A stretch of DNA of 64,000 nucleotides from Bacteroidetes bacterium 43-93. GTDB taxonomy: Bacteria > Bacteroidota > Bacteroidia > Chitinophagales > Chitinophagaceae. Shown piece by piece: positions 34,349 to 47,299 of the stretch. Location of the stretch: assembly GCA_001897855.1 (NCBI GenBank), contig MKUO01000004.1, positions 1-64,000 on the forward strand, written 5' to 3'. Below the pieces are notes generated by a model. The model saw only the letters and a list, made by a program, of their open reading frames with translations, ran no database searches and was not told the DNA's origin. Numbering within the stretch: the stretch's first letter is position 1; every line of letters begins with the position of its first letter. A program made the position numbers and the translations under genes.

Positions 34349-34395
34349 TTTGCGCAAGTAGATACTTGCATATATATTTGCAAGCAAATACTTGC
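34349..34395 (+). promoter_or_regulatory. promoter with tandem ArsR operators
   Basis: TTTG at 34349-34352, a 20-bp spacer and TATATTTG at 34373-34380 form a near-perfect Bacteroidota promoter. Two 16-bp inverted-repeat sites are superimposed: GCAAGTAGATACTTGC at 34354-34369, in the spacer, and GCAAGCAAATACTTGC at 34380-34395, over the expected transcription start. They differ at two positions and start 26 bp apart. The likely ligand is the ArsR-family product of the gene that begins 5 bp later. The same layout occurs at 40979-41025. Confidence 0.8.
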
Positions 34396-34400
34396 GTATT

Positions 34401-34751
34401 ATGGAAATGAGAAGAGATGTATTCCAGGCAATAGCAGATCCAACGCGCAGGCAGATCATCGGCCTGCTGGCAGCAGAACCATTGAATGTAAACACCGTTG
34501 CCGAAAAATTCGATATGACAAGACAGGCTGTGTCGTTGCATGTGAAGATACTGGAAGAGTGTGGCCTTATCATGATCAAAAAGCAGGGTAGGGAACGTTA
34601 TTGCGAAGCGAAACTGGACGGATTAAGTGAAGTGTCTAAATGGGTAGAGCAATACAAGAAATATTGGGAAAGCCATCTTGATTCGTTGGAAGATTACCTG
34701 GCAAAAATTCAGAACACAAAAACTAAGAAATATGCAAAACGAAAAAGCTAA
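34401..34751 (+). CDS. ArsR family transcriptional regulator
   Basis: A 116-residue winged-helix repressor: [20 protein letters not shown] at residues 4-23, recognition helix in TRQAVSLHVKIL and wing KKQGRERYCEA. It lacks the metal-binding CxC of true metalloregulators, so it belongs to the SdpR-like group. The ATG at 34401 is used; an upstream TTG lies inside the second operator. It is first in an operon with an SRPBCC gene (20-nt overlap) and an alpha/beta hydrolase, and has a paralogue at 40652-40975. It should repress its own promoter. Confidence 0.92.
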   Translation: MEMRRDVFQAIADPTRRQIIGLLAAEPLNVNTVAEKFDMTRQAVSLHVKILEECGLIMIKKQGRERYCEAKLDGLSEVSKWVEQYKKYWESHLDSLEDYLAKIQNTKTKKYAKRKS

Positions 34752-35199
34752 TGTGGCAGACAGGGAGATCAGTATGGTTCGCTTACTGGATGCGCCTGTT
34801 AAATTGGTATGGAAAGTATGGACCGATCCAGACCATATTAAAAACTGGTGGGGGCCAACCGGCTTTACTAACACCATTGCAAAAATGGACGTCAGCAAAG
34901 ATGGTGAATGGAATTTTGTAATGCACGGTCCGGACGGTACAGACTATGAGAACAGGGTTGTATTCAGGGATATAATAAAATATAAGAAGATCGTTTATGA
35001 GCATATCAATTTCCCAAGATTCACGGGTACTATAGAATTTGAAGAGCGGGGAAATAAGACGATGCTGAATTGGAGAATGATTTTCGAGAACAAAGACGAA
35101 TTTATGAAAGTAGTGAAGGAATATGGTGCTGTAGAAGGTATGGAACAAAATATTGTTAAGCTCGATCATTATCTTTTGCAGGTTGCTGCTGCTGAATAA
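34732..35199 (+). CDS. SRPBCC (AHSA1-like) ligand-binding protein
   Basis: A 155-residue START/Bet v1-like protein. VRLLDAPVKLVWKVWTDPDH (about 15-34), NWWGPTGFTN and the final NIVKLDHYLL are typical of the AHSA1 C-terminal-like family. The ATG at 34732 lies inside the regulator gene (20-nt overlap). Such proteins bind hydrophobic ligands in a helix-grip cavity; the ligand is not known. Pairing with an ArsR regulator is a recurrent arrangement and occurs again at 40181-40975. Confidence 0.88.
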   Translation: MQNEKANVADREISMVRLLDAPVKLVWKVWTDPDHIKNWWGPTGFTNTIAKMDVSKDGEWNFVMHGPDGTDYENRVVFRDIIKYKKIVYEHINFPRFTGTIEFEERGNKTMLNWRMIFENKDEFMKVVKEYGAVEGMEQNIVKLDHYLLQVAAAE

Positions 35200-35232: not shown

Positions 35233-36108
35233 ATGCATAAAATAACACTTGCCTTACTGGCAACATTTCTTTTAGTTAGCAATACCACAGAAGCAAAGGG
35301 ACCCGACAGCACGAAACGCCAACCGTTAAACACACCGCATAACAGCGCTTATGCAACAGTCAACGGACTGAAAATGTATTACGAAGTGTATGGTGCCGGT
35401 GAACCGCTTATATTGATACATGGTGGAGGTTCTACTATCCAGACTTCATTCGAAAAGATCATTCCCCGCCTGGCCAGGCATCACGAAGTAATTGCTATGG
35501 AGCTGCAGGCGCACGGCCGCACAGCAGATAGAAAGGCAGACCTGTCATTTAAACAAGATGCAGAAGATGTTGTAGCCCTGATGAAAAAGCTGAATATTAA
35601 AAAGGCCGATATACTTGGCTTCAGCAACGGTGGACAAACTGCTATAGAAATTGCTATCAATTACCCTCAGGTTGTAAATAAGCTGGTGCTTGCATCTACG
35701 TTTTATGAAAGGAGTGCAGCCTCAGAGCAATTCTGGAAGGGCTTTGATAATGCTAAATTCAGCGATATGCCGCAAAGCCTGAAAGATGGCTTCCTGGCCG
35801 TGAATAACAGTCCCGCGGCATTAACAAATATGTTCAACAAAGATGTAAAGCGCATGAAGAATTTTGCAGGTTGGACAGACGAACAAATGAAATCTATAAA
35901 AGCGCCGACACTGGTAATTAATAGTATAATGGATGTAGGCACACCTGAAAGCGCTTTGAAAATGTACAGGACTATTCCCGATTGCCAGCTGGTGATACTG
36001 CCGGGTGGGCACGGTGAATACCTGGGTGAAAAAGCAGCAACACAGAAAGACGGATGGCACCAGGCTTATATTACCGACATCGTCGAAAATTTCTTAATAA
36101 CGCAATAA
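35233..36108 (+). CDS. secreted alpha/beta hydrolase
   Basis: A 291-residue hydrolase with an N-terminal signal peptide (ALLATFLLVSNTTEA, cleavage near 21). The oxyanion region is LILIHGGGST (about 57-66), the nucleophile elbow is LGFSNGGQT with the serine near residue 138, the acid lies in NSIMDVGTPES and the catalytic His in LPGGHGEYL. It is the third gene of the ArsR operon, 33 nt after the SRPBCC gene, and is followed by a strong terminator. Substrate, probably a lipophilic ester or lactone, is not predictable. Confidence 0.9.
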   Translation: MHKITLALLATFLLVSNTTEAKGPDSTKRQPLNTPHNSAYATVNGLKMYYEVYGAGEPLILIHGGGSTIQTSFEKIIPRLARHHEVIAMELQAHGRTADRKADLSFKQDAEDVVALMKKLNIKKADILGFSNGGQTAIEIAINYPQVVNKLVLASTFYERSAASEQFWKGFDNAKFSDMPQSLKDGFLAVNNSPAALTNMFNKDVKRMKNFAGWTDEQMKSIKAPTLVINSIMDVGTPESALKMYRTIPDCQLVILPGGHGEYLGEKAATQKDGWHQAYITDIVENFLITQ

Positions 36109-38620: not shown

Positions 38621-39181
38621 TTACACTCTTAATGAACCACGGAAACCTCTCGCGGCATAATAAGATTCTGCACCGTTGTGGTAAAGGAATACCGTATTAT
38701 ACCTGCGGTCGCAAAACACAGCGCCGCCATGTTTCCTGATCTCGGCAGGGGTGTCTACCCAGCTCGACGTTTTGGTGTCAAATGCGCCTAGTTCCTGCAG
38801 CTGGCGGTATTCTTGTTCCGTTAATATTTCTATACCCATTTCAGCAGCTATATTTGCGGCGCTGTCTTTGGGTTTATTCTCTTTGCGTGCTTCCAGGGCT
38901 TCATGGTCGTAGCAAAGGCTTCGGCGCCCCTTTGGGCTTTCAGCTGCGCAGTCGTAAAAAATATACTCACCGGAATTTTTATCGTAACCAACAACATCCG
39001 GTTCGCCACCGCTTAGTTCCATTTCGTTGAGCGACCATAGTTTGGCCGGATGTGCTTCAAGCTTTGCCGCTACTTTATCCCAGTCTATACCTTTATGGCG
39101 ATTGCTGTTTTTATCAAAGCGTGCTTTTAGTATAGCAAGTAATTCTGTTGCTTCTGTGGTGGATAGTTTCTTTTTACTCAT
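38621..39181 (-). CDS. DUF4256 domain protein
   Basis: A 186-residue soluble protein that matches the DUF4256 family along its length, including LWSLNEMELSGGEPDVVGYD, FYDCAAESPKGRRSLCYD and GGAVFCDRRYNTVFLYHNGA. Function is unknown. It is the last gene of a five-gene operon headed by an ArsR regulator, 12 nt after the YdeI-like gene. Confidence 0.85.
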   Translation of the reverse strand: MSKKKLSTTEATELLAILKARFDKNSNRHKGIDWDKVAAKLEAHPAKLWSLNEMELSGGEPDVVGYDKNSGEYIFYDCAAESPKGRRSLCYDHEALEARKENKPKDSAANIAAEMGIEILTEQEYRQLQELGAFDTKTSSWVDTPAEIRKHGGAVFCDRRYNTVFLYHNGAESYYAARGFRGSLRV

Positions 39182-39193
39182 GACTTAATGTGT

Positions 39194-39781
39194 TTAATCG
39201 TTCAGCCCTTTCCCATTCATTATTTGTGGTATTGCTTTCTCTATCCTTGCTTCACGTGTTTTCGATTGCTTGGGTGTTGAAAAATGCAGCAGGTAAGCTC
39301 TTTGCCTTCCGGGCGTTAATGCTTCAAACGCTTTTTTCAATGCAGCGCTTTTCTTTAATTTCTGTACAAATTCCTCAGCCATGGTAAACTCTGCCGGTTG
39401 CTTCAGTTTTACCTTTAGGCCGGCTCTTTCTACTTCTATCGCCTGGTATATATAGGATTTTGTAGCGGGCGCCAGCTTCACTATTTCTTTCACACCGGTA
39501 AAGCGTATTTGCCTTGCAGACTGTACATTTTCTGTTTGCTGTATCAGTATGCCATTAGGGTCATCGAGCAAAGCGCCTTTCATAAACAGCAATGCGCAGT
39601 ATTCTTTAAAGCCATGTATCAGCACTATATTCTTACCTTCAAATGTGTAGCACGGCTGTCCCCATTTCAGTTCTTCATCCAGTCCGCAATCCAGTACGAT
39701 GGTTCTTAGTTTTTCATATTCTTTTTGCCAGGCCGACTCTTTTTCAAAAAAGAAATCCACCTTCGGATTCATTCTGTTCAT
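39194..39781 (-). CDS. YdeI/OmpD-associated, DUF1801-like protein
   Basis: A 195-residue protein with an N-terminal DUF1801-like fold (ELKWGQPCYTFEGKNIVLI, YCALLFMKGALLDDPNG) and the C-terminal YdeI/OmpD-associated helical tail (ALKKAFEALTPGRQRAYLLH, SKTREARIEKAIPQI). Activity is unknown. Its ATG overlaps the DoxX stop in an ATGA arrangement, so the two are translationally coupled. Confidence 0.88.
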   Translation of the reverse strand: MNRMNPKVDFFFEKESAWQKEYEKLRTIVLDCGLDEELKWGQPCYTFEGKNIVLIHGFKEYCALLFMKGALLDDPNGILIQQTENVQSARQIRFTGVKEIVKLAPATKSYIYQAIEVERAGLKVKLKQPAEFTMAEEFVQKLKKSAALKKAFEALTPGRQRAYLLHFSTPKQSKTREARIEKAIPQIMNGKGLND

Positions 39782-40176
39782 TTACTAAAGTTAGCTAAAA
39801 CAGGCTTTCTATTCTCCGGCCTCATGTACCACGATAGCAAGGTTAATGCCAGTAATAATAAAGCAGGTAGGGTAGATGTAAATGGTTGCCCCACCGCCAC
39901 GTGCGAAAATATAGCGCCTGTAGTTACAAAGAAAAATCCTGCATAGGCCCATTCCTTCAGTATAGAAAATCTTGGAATAAGTATTGCTGCAACACCTAGT
40001 ATTTTCCAAACACCCAATATCGTCATCAGGTAATCCGGGTAGCCAAGGTGGGCCATATCATCAGCTGCACCTGTACCTTCTTTTGCTTGCATCAGTTGCA
40101 CAATACCTGTCGCTGTCATACCCAGTCCCAGCCAAAGCGTAGCCACCCAGTAAATGATCTTTTTTCCTTTGTTCAT
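39778..40176 (-). CDS. DoxX family membrane protein
   Basis: A 132-residue protein with four transmembrane helices: YWVATLWLGLGMTATGIVQL, an amphipathic loop, WKILGVAAILIP, AGFFFVTTGAIFSHVAVG and LPALLLLALTLLSWYM. DoxX family members are associated with thiol or quinone redox and membrane stress. It lies 4 nt downstream of the SRPBCC gene in the second ArsR operon. Confidence 0.87.
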   Translation of the reverse strand: MNKGKKIIYWVATLWLGLGMTATGIVQLMQAKEGTGAADDMAHLGYPDYLMTILGVWKILGVAAILIPRFSILKEWAYAGFFFVTTGAIFSHVAVGQPFTSTLPALLLLALTLLSWYMRPENRKPVLANFSK

Positions 40177-40180
40177 AATG

Positions 40181-40645
40181 CTATTTCATTTTGGTTAACA
40201 CTTCTTCCAGGCGCTTATGTGCCATATTAATGCCTTGTTTGAATGGTAATTGCATCACCTGGTCGCGCTGGGCTATCGATTCATAAATAACATGCATGGT
40301 AAGTTTACTGGTATCTTCGGTCAGGGGTTCAAAGTAGTAGAATTCCAGTTGCACGCCCATCGGGGTTCCTTCCATTTCAAAAGTCCTTACTATTTTCTGT
40401 TCCGGTACCAGTTCGTGTATGGCACCTGCAAAGCCATGTTTATTGCCCTTGGGGTCTGTTGTCTCAAACCGGTAGCTACCATGCTTTTGAGCATCGAGTT
40501 TCAGTACTTTGGTTCCCATCCATTGTTCTACAAGTTCGGGCTCCACATAAGCTCTAAAGAGTAGATCTACAGGCAGGTCAAACTCACGGGTGATCTTTAA
40601 TTCCTGTTGGCCGTCTTCGGCTTGGATTTGTGTCTTCATTTCCAT
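40181..40645 (-). CDS. SRPBCC (AHSA1-like) ligand-binding protein
   Basis: A 154-residue helix-grip protein: LKITREFDLPVDLLFRAYVE (about 16-35), VEQWMGTKVL and a C-terminal helix with GINMAHKRLEEVLTK. It is a divergent relative of the SRPBCC genes at 34732 and 46850. It follows its ArsR regulator by 6 nt and precedes DoxX by 4 nt. Ligand unknown. Confidence 0.88.
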   Translation of the reverse strand: MEMKTQIQAEDGQQELKITREFDLPVDLLFRAYVEPELVEQWMGTKVLKLDAQKHGSYRFETTDPKGNKHGFAGAIHELVPEQKIVRTFEMEGTPMGVQLEFYYFEPLTEDTSKLTMHVIYESIAQRDQVMQLPFKQGINMAHKRLEEVLTKMK

Positions 40646-40651
40646 ATTGTG

Positions 40652-40975
40652 CTATTTTTTTGATTTGTATTGTTTCATTACGCTTTCCAGTTTGTTAAAC
40701 CTGTCATCCCACATTTTGCGGAAGGGTTCTATAAAGTCTGCTACTTCTTTCATTTTCTTTGGATTTAAATGATAATATATTTCCCTGCCGTTTTGTTCCT
40801 GTTTCAGCAGTTCGCATTCTGTTAGTATGGCCAGGTGTTTAGATACCGTCGGCCTTGCGGTATCAAAGTTTGCCGCGATTGCGCCGGCTGTCATAGCCTG
40901 GCTGGCTACCAGCATCAGTATCGTGCGCCTGGTTGGGTCTGCTATCGCCTGGAACACATCTCTTCTTAGGTTCAT
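40652..40975 (-). CDS. ArsR family transcriptional regulator (paralogue)
   Basis: A 107-residue winged-helix repressor with [20 protein letters not shown] at residues 3-22, nearly the same as in the 34401 gene, but a different recognition helix ([12 protein letters not shown] versus TRQAVSLHVKIL) and wing ([11 protein letters not shown]). No metal-ligand Cys pair. It heads an operon arsR-SRPBCC-DoxX-YdeI/DUF1801-DUF4256. Two 16-bp palindromes at 40979-40994 and 41005-41020 overlap its promoter and are the likely operators. Confidence 0.92.
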
Positions 40976-40978
40976 TAT

Positions 40979-41025
40979 GTAGCTATTTGACTACAAATAT
41001 ATGCGTAGTTATTTGACTACGCAAA
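40979..41025 (-). promoter_or_regulatory. promoter with tandem ArsR operators
   Basis: On the minus strand TTTG at 41025-41022, a 20-bp spacer and TATATTTG at 41001-40994 form the promoter. Two 16-bp sites overlie it: GTAGTTATTTGACTAC at 41005-41020 and GTAGCTATTTGACTAC at 40979-40994 (plus-strand reading), 26 bp apart, the second 3 bp from the start codon. Spacing and register equal those at 34349-34395 but the half-site is GTAG/CTAC instead of GCAAG/CTTGC. Confidence 0.82.
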
Positions 41026-41082: not shown

Positions 41083-42150
41083 TTACTCAGAGAAACTCGA
41101 AAAGTTCTTTCCATCATATTTATACAAGCCATTGTTCCTGGTGCCAAACCATATGTTTCCATCCCTGTCTTGCAGCATAGACCATACACTATAACCACCT
41201 AAGGTATTGGATGAAAAACGTTTTATAGAGTCGCCCTTATATATCCATAGACCACCATTGCTCGAATATCCATCGTCCTTTTCTCCACCGCTAAACCATA
41301 CATTACCTTGTTTGTCAGCCAGCGCCGATAGGCCAATGTCATCTCCTTTCATAAACATGTTAAAGCCCTTCTTGTCATAACGCCATATACCTACATGTCT
41401 TGTTCCTATCCATACAATGCCGTTTTTGTCTTGCAGCATATAACGTATCCAGCCATCACCTCCCGGCTTTATCCTTGTCAGTTTTTTACTATATGGATCA
41501 TATCTGCATATCCCTTCATCACCAGGTATCATTCCGGAACCTAACCATATGGTTCCGTCATAGGCTTCAAACATGCAGTCCACCATTTTCAATTGTACAG
41601 TGTCTTCGTTTTTCAACTCCGGACGATTTACGAAACGGGTAAATGCTTTTCCGTCGTAGCAATACAGGCCACTTCTTGCGCCAAACCACAGCAGCCCGTC
41701 CCTGGTCTGCATCATACTCCATATCTCATTTTCCCGCGAAGAAGGGTCTTCAACCGGCACACCAACTGACAAATAACTATTATTGTTCAGCAGTATAGGA
41801 ATATGTTGAATGCGTTTACCATCGTACTTACTAAGTCCGTTCTTTGTACCTATCCATATATTGCCCGATGTATCTTCCAGCAAGGAGTAAACAGTATTAT
41901 CACTCAATCCATCTTTATTGGTAAACTGGGTGAACGTTTTTCCATCATAGCGATATACACCTTCCTTTATAGTACCCACCCATATATTTCCCCCTTTGTC
42001 TTGTAACAGCGCATGAATGTTGGCATATTGATCTGACCCTTGTGTTTTTATGAGTTTCGCTGTAGTATGCGTAAAGTTTTTATCGGTTTTGGTTTGCCCA
42101 TTGCATGAGCTAGTCGACAATAATATTGGTATTATGTACAATAGTTTCAT
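41083..42150 (-). CDS. two-component regulator propeller (Reg_prop) lipoprotein without a kinase
   Basis: A 355-residue lipoprotein (lipobox TSSC, Cys16) made of about seven Reg_prop blades, each with GNIWIGT-like and YDGKxF-like strands (for example GGNIWVGTIKEGVYRYDG, GTIWLGSG, GNIWFGTRNNGLYKYDG). In hybrid two-component systems this propeller is the periplasmic sensor followed by a transmembrane helix and histidine kinase; here the protein stops after the last blade and no kinase is nearby. It may be a free sensor subunit or binding protein. Monocistronic with its own terminator. Confidence 0.85.
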   Translation of the reverse strand: MKLLYIIPILLSTSSCNGQTKTDKNFTHTTAKLIKTQGSDQYANIHALLQDKGGNIWVGTIKEGVYRYDGKTFTQFTNKDGLSDNTVYSLLEDTSGNIWIGTKNGLSKYDGKRIQHIPILLNNNSYLSVGVPVEDPSSRENEIWSMMQTRDGLLWFGARSGLYCYDGKAFTRFVNRPELKNEDTVQLKMVDCMFEAYDGTIWLGSGMIPGDEGICRYDPYSKKLTRIKPGGDGWIRYMLQDKNGIVWIGTRHVGIWRYDKKGFNMFMKGDDIGLSALADKQGNVWFSGGEKDDGYSSNGGLWIYKGDSIKRFSSNTLGGYSVWSMLQDRDGNIWFGTRNNGLYKYDGKNFSSFSE

Positions 42151-46849: not shown

Positions 46850-47299
46850 ATGGCAAACAATAGCGTTTCTCTCCACAGAGTTATCAAAGCAACACCCGAA
46901 AAAGTATATCGTGCATTTACAGAGCCTTTGGCTATTGCATCCTGGCTGCCGCCTTATGGCTTCCTTTGCACCGTACACGAAATGAATCCACAGGTAGGCG
47001 GCACTTTCCGCATGTCGTTTCACAATTTCTCTACCGGCAATGGTCATTCTTTCGGCGGAAAATATATCGACCTCAGGCCAAATGAATTTTTACAGTACAC
47101 AGATACGTTCGAGGACCCAAACATGCCCGGCGAAATGCGTACTACAATATGGCTGGAGAAAACTTCTGTAGGTACGGAAATGAAAGTGCTGCAGGAAGGG
47201 ATTCCATCAGTTATACCGGTAGAGATGTGTTATCTCGGCTGGCAGGAGTCCCTGGAAAAGCTCATCAAACTGGTAGAGCCTAATATACCGGACGCTTAA
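46850..47299 (+). CDS. SRPBCC (AHSA1-like) protein
   Basis: A 149-residue helix-grip protein: VSLHRVIKATPEKVYRAFTE (4-23), ASWLPPYGFLCTVHEMNPQ, GGTFRMSFHNFSTGNGHSFG and a C-terminal CYLGWQESLEKLIKLVEP helix. It belongs to the same broad family as the genes at 34732 and 40181 but stands alone, without an ArsR partner. Ligand unknown. A CATCTTTG -7-like element lies about 20 nt upstream, and a 13-bp hairpin ends the transcript at 47335-47368. Confidence 0.88.
   Translation: MANNSVSLHRVIKATPEKVYRAFTEPLAIASWLPPYGFLCTVHEMNPQVGGTFRMSFHNFSTGNGHSFGGKYIDLRPNEFLQYTDTFEDPNMPGEMRTTIWLEKTSVGTEMKVLQEGIPSVIPVEMCYLGWQESLEKLIKLVEPNIPDA

Follow-up and report, generated by a model that had tools for sequence, protein, structure and literature searches.

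Recognition-helix residues appear to predict operator bases in putative autorepressed ArsR-SRPBCC operons of Bacteroidota

When two paralogous repressors of one genome differ in the recognition helix, do their operators differ accordingly and, if so, by what rule? This question is raised by a stretch of 64,000 nucleotides from Bacteroidetes bacterium 43-93 (contig MKUO01000004.1, positions 1 to 64,000; hereinafter the window, to which coordinates refer unless noted otherwise). Here, two genes for ArsR-type proteins, 6 kb apart on opposite strands, are each preceded by a promoter with two palindromes and followed by a gene for an SRPBCC/AHSA1 protein. Given the comparisons described below, each of these modules is very probably an autorepressed ArsR-SRPBCC operon in which the opening turns of the recognition helix would set specificity in a near one-to-one manner. 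A broader proposition, to which we give slightly better than even chances, is that helix positions 1, 2, 3 and 6 read operator bases 1, 2, 4 and 5 in a near-additive code that extends across phyla and into archaea, with approximately one address per module insulating the paralogues. What stands out is the rule behind the window pair and not the pair itself.

Two operons with the same promoter-operator geometry

The putative autorepressor at the center of this analysis is a protein of 107 amino acids encoded at 40652-40975 on the minus strand. On this strand, positions 41025-40973 read TTTG-CGTAGTCAAATAACTACGCA-TATATTTG-TAGTCAAATAGCTAC-ATA-ATG, with the ATG at 40975. The predicted -33 box TTTG (41022-41025) and -7 box TATATTTG (40994-41001) are 20 bp apart; TTTG near -33 and TANNTTTG near -7 presumably represent promoter boxes of the Bacteroidota type. 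Two 16-bp palindromes, the predicted operators, are located exactly 26 bp apart. Operator 1, GTAGT-CAAATA-ACTAC (41005-41020), lies within the promoter spacer and is kept in orthologues, and operator 2, GTAGT-CAAATA-GCTAC (40979-40994), begins at the final base, a G, of the -7 box and runs towards the start codon, stopping 3 bases before the ATG. With up to two mismatches allowed, GTAGNTATTTGACTAC is found in the window at just the two sites, against a chance expectation of 0.12; one of 100 shuffles gave two. The paralogous module, on the plus strand, consists of TTTG at 34349-34352, operator 1 GCAAG-TAGATA-CTTGC at 34354-34369, the -7 box TATATTTG at 34373-34380 and operator 2 GCAAG-CAAATA-CTTGC at 34380-34395, again with palindromes 26 bp apart and boxes separated by 20 bp.

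A strict search for the full architecture (two palindromes with 26-bp spacing and at least 4 of 5 arm pairs, plus both boxes at their positions) retrieved exactly two places in the 64 kb, 34349-34395 (+) and 41025-40979 (-), and none in 20 mononucleotide-shuffled windows searched on both strands. The identical geometry of the two operons, initially proposed in a sequence-only reading of the window, is confirmed by this result. The half-sites given in that reading, GTAG/CTAC and GCAAG/CTTGC, were likewise borne out, with the refinement that the arms are best taken as five bases (GTAGT or GTAGC vs GCAAG) flanking an N6 core, and the operators of the two modules differ at half-site bases 2, 4 and 5. 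The recognition-helix sequences were also quoted correctly (residues 40-51 of the 40652-40975 protein and TRQAVSLHVKIL in the paralogue).

Under the proposed mechanism, a winged-helix ArsR dimer would bind each 16-bp palindrome. Occupation of palindrome 1, in the promoter spacer, and palindrome 2, from the -7 box across the transcription start, would mask both boxes and keep the operon, repressor gene included, off until release by some signal.

Other modules in the same genome

A search of the same genome with the ArsR protein of interest yielded nine matches, five of which (L001-L005, on four contigs) have the promoter and double-palindrome layout; the genome thus contains at least five modules of this kind, the window pair among them. 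Their helices and half-sites are RPTVSKH with GTAGT, RQAVSKH with GCAAC, RPAISQH with GTAAG, RPAISKH with GTAAC and RQAVSLH with GCAAG, and the operator spacing is 28 bp in L003, 25 bp in L004 and 26 bp in the others. Across the genomes analyzed, up to eight ArsR-SRPBCC autorepressor modules were seen in one genome.

A sixth ArsR gene of the same branch (L006, G000:C18:297873-298169; helix SRPAVSKH), followed by an ORF (open reading frame) that is SRPBCC by eye, is an RPA-type paralogue that shares an address class without having a double operator of its own, a recurring exception. A further match (L007) is an SdpR-family gene (138.4 bits, above the cut-off), followed by a membrane protein that is SdpI-like by eye, not SRPBCC; it has the helix KPSISHH and a single palindrome, TTAGATATTTGTCTAA, that is, TTAGA-TATTTG-TCTAA, with the same core TATTTG. 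A wider regulon was considered and rejected: exact matches to GTAGNNAAATNNCTAC in this genome comprise the two operator sites and one site inside an apparent major facilitator superfamily transporter gene (by eye), and with up to one mismatch there are ten places, including the three exact ones, compared to 55 for the reversed control pattern.

Coupling between recognition-helix residues and operator bases

The locus set was assembled from 80 related loci, genome searches at the genus, family, order, class and phylum levels, and stretches of further genomes, resulting in 390 loci with 391 ArsR hits, of which 369 are distinct (22 duplicates were dropped); loci L408-L423 do not enter the counts. 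Operators were called from DNA only, as palindrome pairs with a spacing of 23-30 bp, promoter boxes adding to the score and a score of at least 11.5 being required. Double operators were callable for 305 of the 369 genes, leaving 64 without a call; among 1107 shuffled upstream regions, 30 passed the same threshold. A set of 125 representatives with less than 80% identity was then selected (180 of the 305 were dropped). An SRPBCC ORF lies directly 3' of the ArsR gene at 286 of the 305 loci; two loci are cut by the locus end and 17 lack such an ORF.

Mutual information was computed for 108 protein columns and 8 half-site bases, 864 pairs altogether, over the representatives. The three highest-ranking pairs are residue 42 with base 2, residue 46 with base 5 and residue 43 with base 4 (z 47, 33 and 28, respectively), all in the recognition helix, so that the co-variation across ArsR/SRPBCC homologues anticipated in the sequence-only reading is indeed found. 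Among the representatives, P42 goes with T (51 of 55; 4 indeterminate) and Q42 with C (54 of 62; 8 indeterminate); A43 with A (100 of 103; 3 indeterminate), T43 with G (16 of 17; 1 indeterminate) and S43 with G (3); K46 (n=94) with C in 79 cases and T in 7 (8 indeterminate), and both Q46 and L46 with G (13 of 14 and 11 of 12, one indeterminate each). No determinate base contradicts the rules for P42/Q42, A43/T43 and K46/Q46/L46. The few rows to which no rule applies are T42 (C 2, T 1, indeterminate 1), A42 (A 1, indeterminate 1), K42 and M42 (C 1 each), V43 and G43 (A 1 each), N46 and H46 (both indeterminate) and R46 (C 1, T 1). Where Lys or Arg46 occurs with T at base 5, Thr43 stands alongside in all 8 representatives and in 73 of 74 such cases among all called loci.

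The picture is similar for all 305 loci, with 264 in agreement, 3 contrary, 29 indeterminate and 9 without a rule for residue 42; 289, 6, 8 and 2, respectively, for residue 43; and 250, 1, 53 and 1 for residue 46. Five of the ten contrary cells come from apparently mis-called operators (L077, L216, L335), four are Ser43 with A at base 4 and one is Gln42 with GAAAC. The rules for P or Q with base 2 and for K vs Q or L with base 5 were fixed on the five modules of the source genome before other genomes were searched. The base-4 rule (Ala with A, Thr with G) followed an initial look at other genomes, and the clause that base 5 is C or T beside Thr43 was added later still.

The residues combine, such that RPT goes with GTAG, RPA with GTAA, RQT with GCAG and RQA with GCAA, base 5 being determined by K or Q/L. 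Taken together, these sequence comparisons indicate that recognition-helix residues predict operator bases and that the correspondence recurs independently on the tree (see below). In mechanistic terms, residue 42 (helix position 2) would contact base 2, residue 43 base 4 and residue 46 (position 6) base 5, and residue 41 (position 1) probably base 1. In the window protein the coupled residues are P42, T43 and K46, and probably R41, within a recognition helix that spans residues 41-53, and the paralogue has R41, Q42, A43 and L46; these proteins (R-P-T..K and R-Q-A..L) would read GTAG[T/C] and GCAAG, respectively.

The spacing of 26 bp is observed at 250 of the 305 loci, and at 152 it is combined with a promoter spacer of 20. 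TTTG occurs at the same offset from site 1 as in the window module at 214 loci, and TANNTTTG at the corresponding offset from site 2 at 241, both counts coming from a caller that rewards the boxes. Promoter spacers of 18 or 19 are accompanied by operator spacings of 24 or 25 (11 and 5 loci), and at 7 loci with a spacing of 28 site 2 is shifted 2 bp downstream. Because the operator spacing shifts with the promoter spacer, the sites appear to be tied to the boxes, although this is partly built in by the caller. A spacing of 26 bp, approximately two and a half helical turns, would place two dimers on opposite faces of the DNA, and the tolerance of 24-28 bp would favor occlusion over a fixed dimer-dimer contact. 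In L003, L091 and L114, the operators are of the GTAAG type with 28-bp spacing, and the distance from the -7 box to site 2 is 2 bp longer.

Operators in other phyla

The rules derived from Bacteroidota only were applied to 29 plasmid loci from other phyla, 15 of which were usable, with at least three bases predicted; L425 (located behind the SRPBCC gene), four near copies (L404, L434, L438, L442) and nine loci with fewer than three predicted bases were dropped. Both half-sites fit perfectly at nine of the 15 loci. The partner-swapped control gave a mean of 2.34 and at most 8 in 5000 trials, and shuffled DNA gave a mean of 0.59 and at most 3 in 200; one of the nine fits, L431, is asymmetric, doubtful and probably due to chance. 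Examples include RPAISRH with GTAAC in Streptomyces and Sandaracinus, and SQPAMSQH with ATAAG in Shinella.

Comparison of residue 41 with base 1 links Arg to G, Gln to A (L401, L404, L441), Lys to T (L007) and Leu to T (L402, L429, L430, L432, L433, L434). This rule was read off the same data post hoc, and residue 41 probably sets base 1. The archaeal plasmid locus L429 has the helix SLAAVSKH and the half-site TCAAC; only bases 4 and 5 are predicted by the rules, and it is not among the 15.

A Metabacillus plasmid (L424) carries GACAC-N6-GTGTC twice, exactly 26 bp apart, 5' of an ArsR gene (helix GRTAVSKH) and an SRPBCC gene; the double-site layout exists outside Bacteroidota. A chloramphenicol acetyltransferase gene adjoins this module. 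The coding rule is claimed for the SRPBCC branch only: RexT, which is described as binding ATTCG-N15-CGAAT (PMC8960804), has a site geometry that does not fit it.

Separation of addresses within genomes

The sequence-only reading held that the two modules diverged to avoid cross-talk. We compared addresses within genomes for 279 proteins with Arg41 and at least 100 bits from 126 genomes, leaving out the 80 loci of the Bacteroidota orthologue group of the window protein. Pairs with the same address account for 20 of 309 within-genome pairs, compared to the expected 60.7, and when only proteins with their own called operator are considered, for 7 of 194, compared to the expected 37 (z -5.5). None of 150 column sets drawn from outside the helix and matched for entropy was as strongly depleted (mean -1.6, lowest -4.9). 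The claim is supported in this statistical sense, and insulation of the paralogues would be the selective cause. A related case of paralogous ArsR repressors in one genome is that of ArsR1 and ArsR2 of P. putida, which are reported to cross-regulate each other's promoters (PMC7994332), unlike the ArsR-SRPBCC modules, the addresses of which appear to be kept apart.

The helix-operator code may be a way in which one cell keeps several look-alike switches apart. If it is real, operators would be predictable from protein sequence alone in one of the commonest families of bacterial regulators, the modules would form a ready-made natural collection of similar switches, each with its own address, and they would offer a clean test of how paralogous repressors shift specificity yet stay functional.

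Alternative explanations

The most serious rival is shared ancestry, whereby helix and operator were passed down together within each orthologue group in the absence of a causal code. The helix classes do mostly follow orthologue groups, and other columns correlate with the operator as well, for example, column 30 with base 2 and column 31 with base 4. However, the three strongest of all 864 pairs map to the first turns of the recognition helix, and the Bacteroidota-derived rules fit operators in other phyla. Furthermore, in a midpoint-rooted tree built without columns 36-54, the greedy count of independent pairs that differ at residues 42, 43 and 46 is 10, 3 and 12, with both bases determinate in 9, 3 and 7 of these, and all the determinate pairs differ as predicted. 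With K, each of RPT, RPA, RQT and RQA yields the combined half-site, as do RPA with Q and RQA with L. Given this recurrence, ancestry alone appears an unlikely explanation, and a code read by the helix is preferred.

A different question is whether the window pair arose by a recent local duplication of one module, as the distance of 6 kb, the same promoter and the similar first helix might suggest. The two window ArsR proteins are only 39% identical to each other, whereas over the matched segment the protein of interest shares 81-93% identity with those of 80 loci from Chitinophaga, Pedobacter, Mucilaginibacter, Chryseobacterium, Dyadobacter and other genera, and the five modules of this genome are spread over four contigs. 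A recent duplication was rejected on the protein identities and deserves hardly any credence; of the proposal that a duplicated module diverged in protein and DNA together, the co-variation stands, with the correction that the duplication was not recent and local. Because the identity across Bacteroidota genera is so much higher than that to the neighbor, the duplication is ancient, and the GTAG-type module represents an orthologue group found across Bacteroidota. The helix is RPT in all 80 orthologous loci; an operator was called for 76, and in 73 three or all four half-sites contain GTAG. The palindromes themselves could be RNA hairpins, terminators or attenuators, and a terminator-like hairpin with a T tail is indeed predicted at 41002-41023 on the plus strand, spanning operator 1. 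Such calls, however, are no more frequent in the region than in shuffles (3, with 3.2 expected). Operator 1, being upstream of the -7 box, would fall outside the operon transcript, and both copies share arms that follow the helix of the regulator; this reading was rejected and its probability is minimal. Nor does it seem at all probable that the regulators read some other site and the palindromes serve another factor, given that the arm bases track the helix encoded by the adjacent gene across the called loci and that the exact matches to GTAGNNAAATNNCTAC in this genome are confined to the two operator sites and the one inside the apparent transporter gene.

Several observations weigh against the helix-operator code or narrow it. 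The reward for TTTG and TANNTTTG means that G at base 1 and part of the geometry are built into the calls. With the reward removed, the caller is weaker but still peaks at 26 bp: a unique perfect double palindrome is retrieved for just 88 of 362 proteins, at 26 bp in 38 cases and at 21 bp, the next commonest spacing, in 15, and among the 88 operators TTTG is in place in 46, TANNTTTG in 33 and neither in 31. At 100 bits or more, 58 of 362 rows lack a called double operator; 30 of these 58 are RPA[V/I]SKH[I/V], and 25 contain a predicted single site with at most one mismatch, some surely by chance. As initially fixed, the rule missed base 5 of the window module itself, where T accompanies Lys46. 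Ser43 is seen with either base (A 4, G 3, indeterminate 2; n=9), Gln42 tolerates A at base 2, with GAAAC common in that class, and residue 43 rests on just three independent contrasts. In the cross-phylum sample, six of the 15 loci fail (L426, L427, L440, L443, L444, L445). Finally, the depletion of shared addresses, which applies to Arg41 loci only, partly reflects the presence of one orthologue per group per genome, and depletion is also observed for single columns outside the helix (z -4.2 for column 95, compared to -4.0, -3.9 and -3.2 for columns 43, 46 and 42).

Four loci labelled Acidobacteria, Glaciecola, Akkermansiaceae and Beijerinckiaceae (L042, L059, L062 and L089, respectively) contain the module at 84-87% identity and have Bacteroidota-like matches; their naming or binning may be wrong.

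Structure and relation to known systems

The AlphaFold2 model of the window ArsR protein (mean predicted local distance difference test score 90.5) has a helix at residues 41-53, with residues 41, 42 and 46 at helix positions 1, 2 and 6, the positions that are named as base-reading in helix-turn-helix proteins (PMC5045206). For NolR, which binds a 16-bp site, (A/T)TTAG-N9-A(T/A), a contact of Gln56 with an A or T base has been described (PMC8960804). By equal match ranges (profile 8-78 on chain 23-93), not by residue-by-residue alignment, Gln56 falls on column 41, so that NolR resembles the window proteins in the length of the site and would do so in its column-41 contact with A or T, a base that would correspond to base 1; unlike them, it is a global regulator from another ArsR branch.

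Another close parallel is Rv2034. The polyketide_cyc2 domain of its neighbor is, we assume, SRPBCC-like at the clan level. As proposed for the window modules, this ArsR protein is co-expressed with the neighboring polyketide_cyc2-domain gene, represses its own gene and binds a palindrome, with the footprint CCGTAAGT-N4-ACTTACGG, half of which is still bound, more weakly; it differs in being actinobacterial and having one palindrome, and the accessible passages of the paper give no residue-base rule (PMC3338718). In the half-site register used here, the Rv2034 site is GTAAG-N6-CTTAC. Its helix is presumably RPAVSQH, for which the rule would give GTAAG.

Among autoregulated families, LacI is already known to have a recognition code (Camas, Alm and Poyatos 2010; PMC2978694). 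As described there, autoregulation similarly pairs regulators with sites, a small set of residue-base correlations is kept across evolutionary distance, and switches on the tree are convergent. The LacI code involves another fold family and two residues with two bases (PMC2978694), compared to three and three, with a fourth likely, in the ArsR winged helix, and the within-genome depletion of shared addresses is an added feature of the ArsR modules. Prot-DNA-Korr studies of MerR and IclR apply a like kind of residue-base correlation analysis to other families; for IclR, strong and weak preferences are described, as opposed to the near one-to-one rules in the ArsR-SRPBCC modules (PMC5045206, PMC8222616). 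No residue-to-base rule for ArsR was seen among the matches listed in full-text searches of open-licence papers, subscription papers being outside the scope of this survey. To our knowledge, simple rules linking amino acids to bases are rare outside zinc fingers and TAL effectors, LacI being a further case.

Gene content and neighborhood of the two modules

Both window proteins belong to the ArsR/SmtB family, with matches to Pfam HTH_5 and HTH_20 and to NCBIfam NF033788 above the curated cut-offs. The SdpR family (NF033789) similarly consists of short ArsR autorepressors, but the window proteins, at 84.9 and 60.5 bits, are below its cut-off of 100 bits. Metal-sensing ArsR/SmtB proteins have a cysteine metal site in helix alpha-3. 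The window ArsR protein has no metal-sensor cysteines in helix 3; its single Cys is at position 54. Among the 125 representatives, Cys is found in column 54 in 117 and in column 68 in 63, and otherwise in four single instances; the conserved Cys54 is located just past the recognition helix. As a mere guess, the trigger for ArsR release might be thiol-based or ligand-based.

The operon of interest probably continues well beyond the SRPBCC/AHSA1 gene (40181-40645, -; Pfam AHSA1), the putative regulated partner. It is followed on the same strand by genes for a DoxX_2 membrane protein (39778-40176; 4-nucleotide gap), a protein with DUF1801 and OmdA domains (39194-39781; overlapping the DoxX gene) and a DUF4256 protein (38621-39181; 12-nucleotide gap), all identified by Pfam matches and likely members of the same operon. 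In the paralogous module, the ArsR gene (34401-34751, +) is followed by its SRPBCC/AHSA1 partner (34735-35199, +; Pfam) and by an alpha/beta hydrolase gene (35233-36108, +), which by its Pfam match and position is a possible third gene of the operon. Another SRPBCC/AHSA1 gene, at 46850-47299 (+), has no adjoining ArsR partner. A terminator-like hairpin with a T tail is present at 41060-41038 (-), between the upstream gene (41083-42150, -) and the promoter of the minus-strand module.
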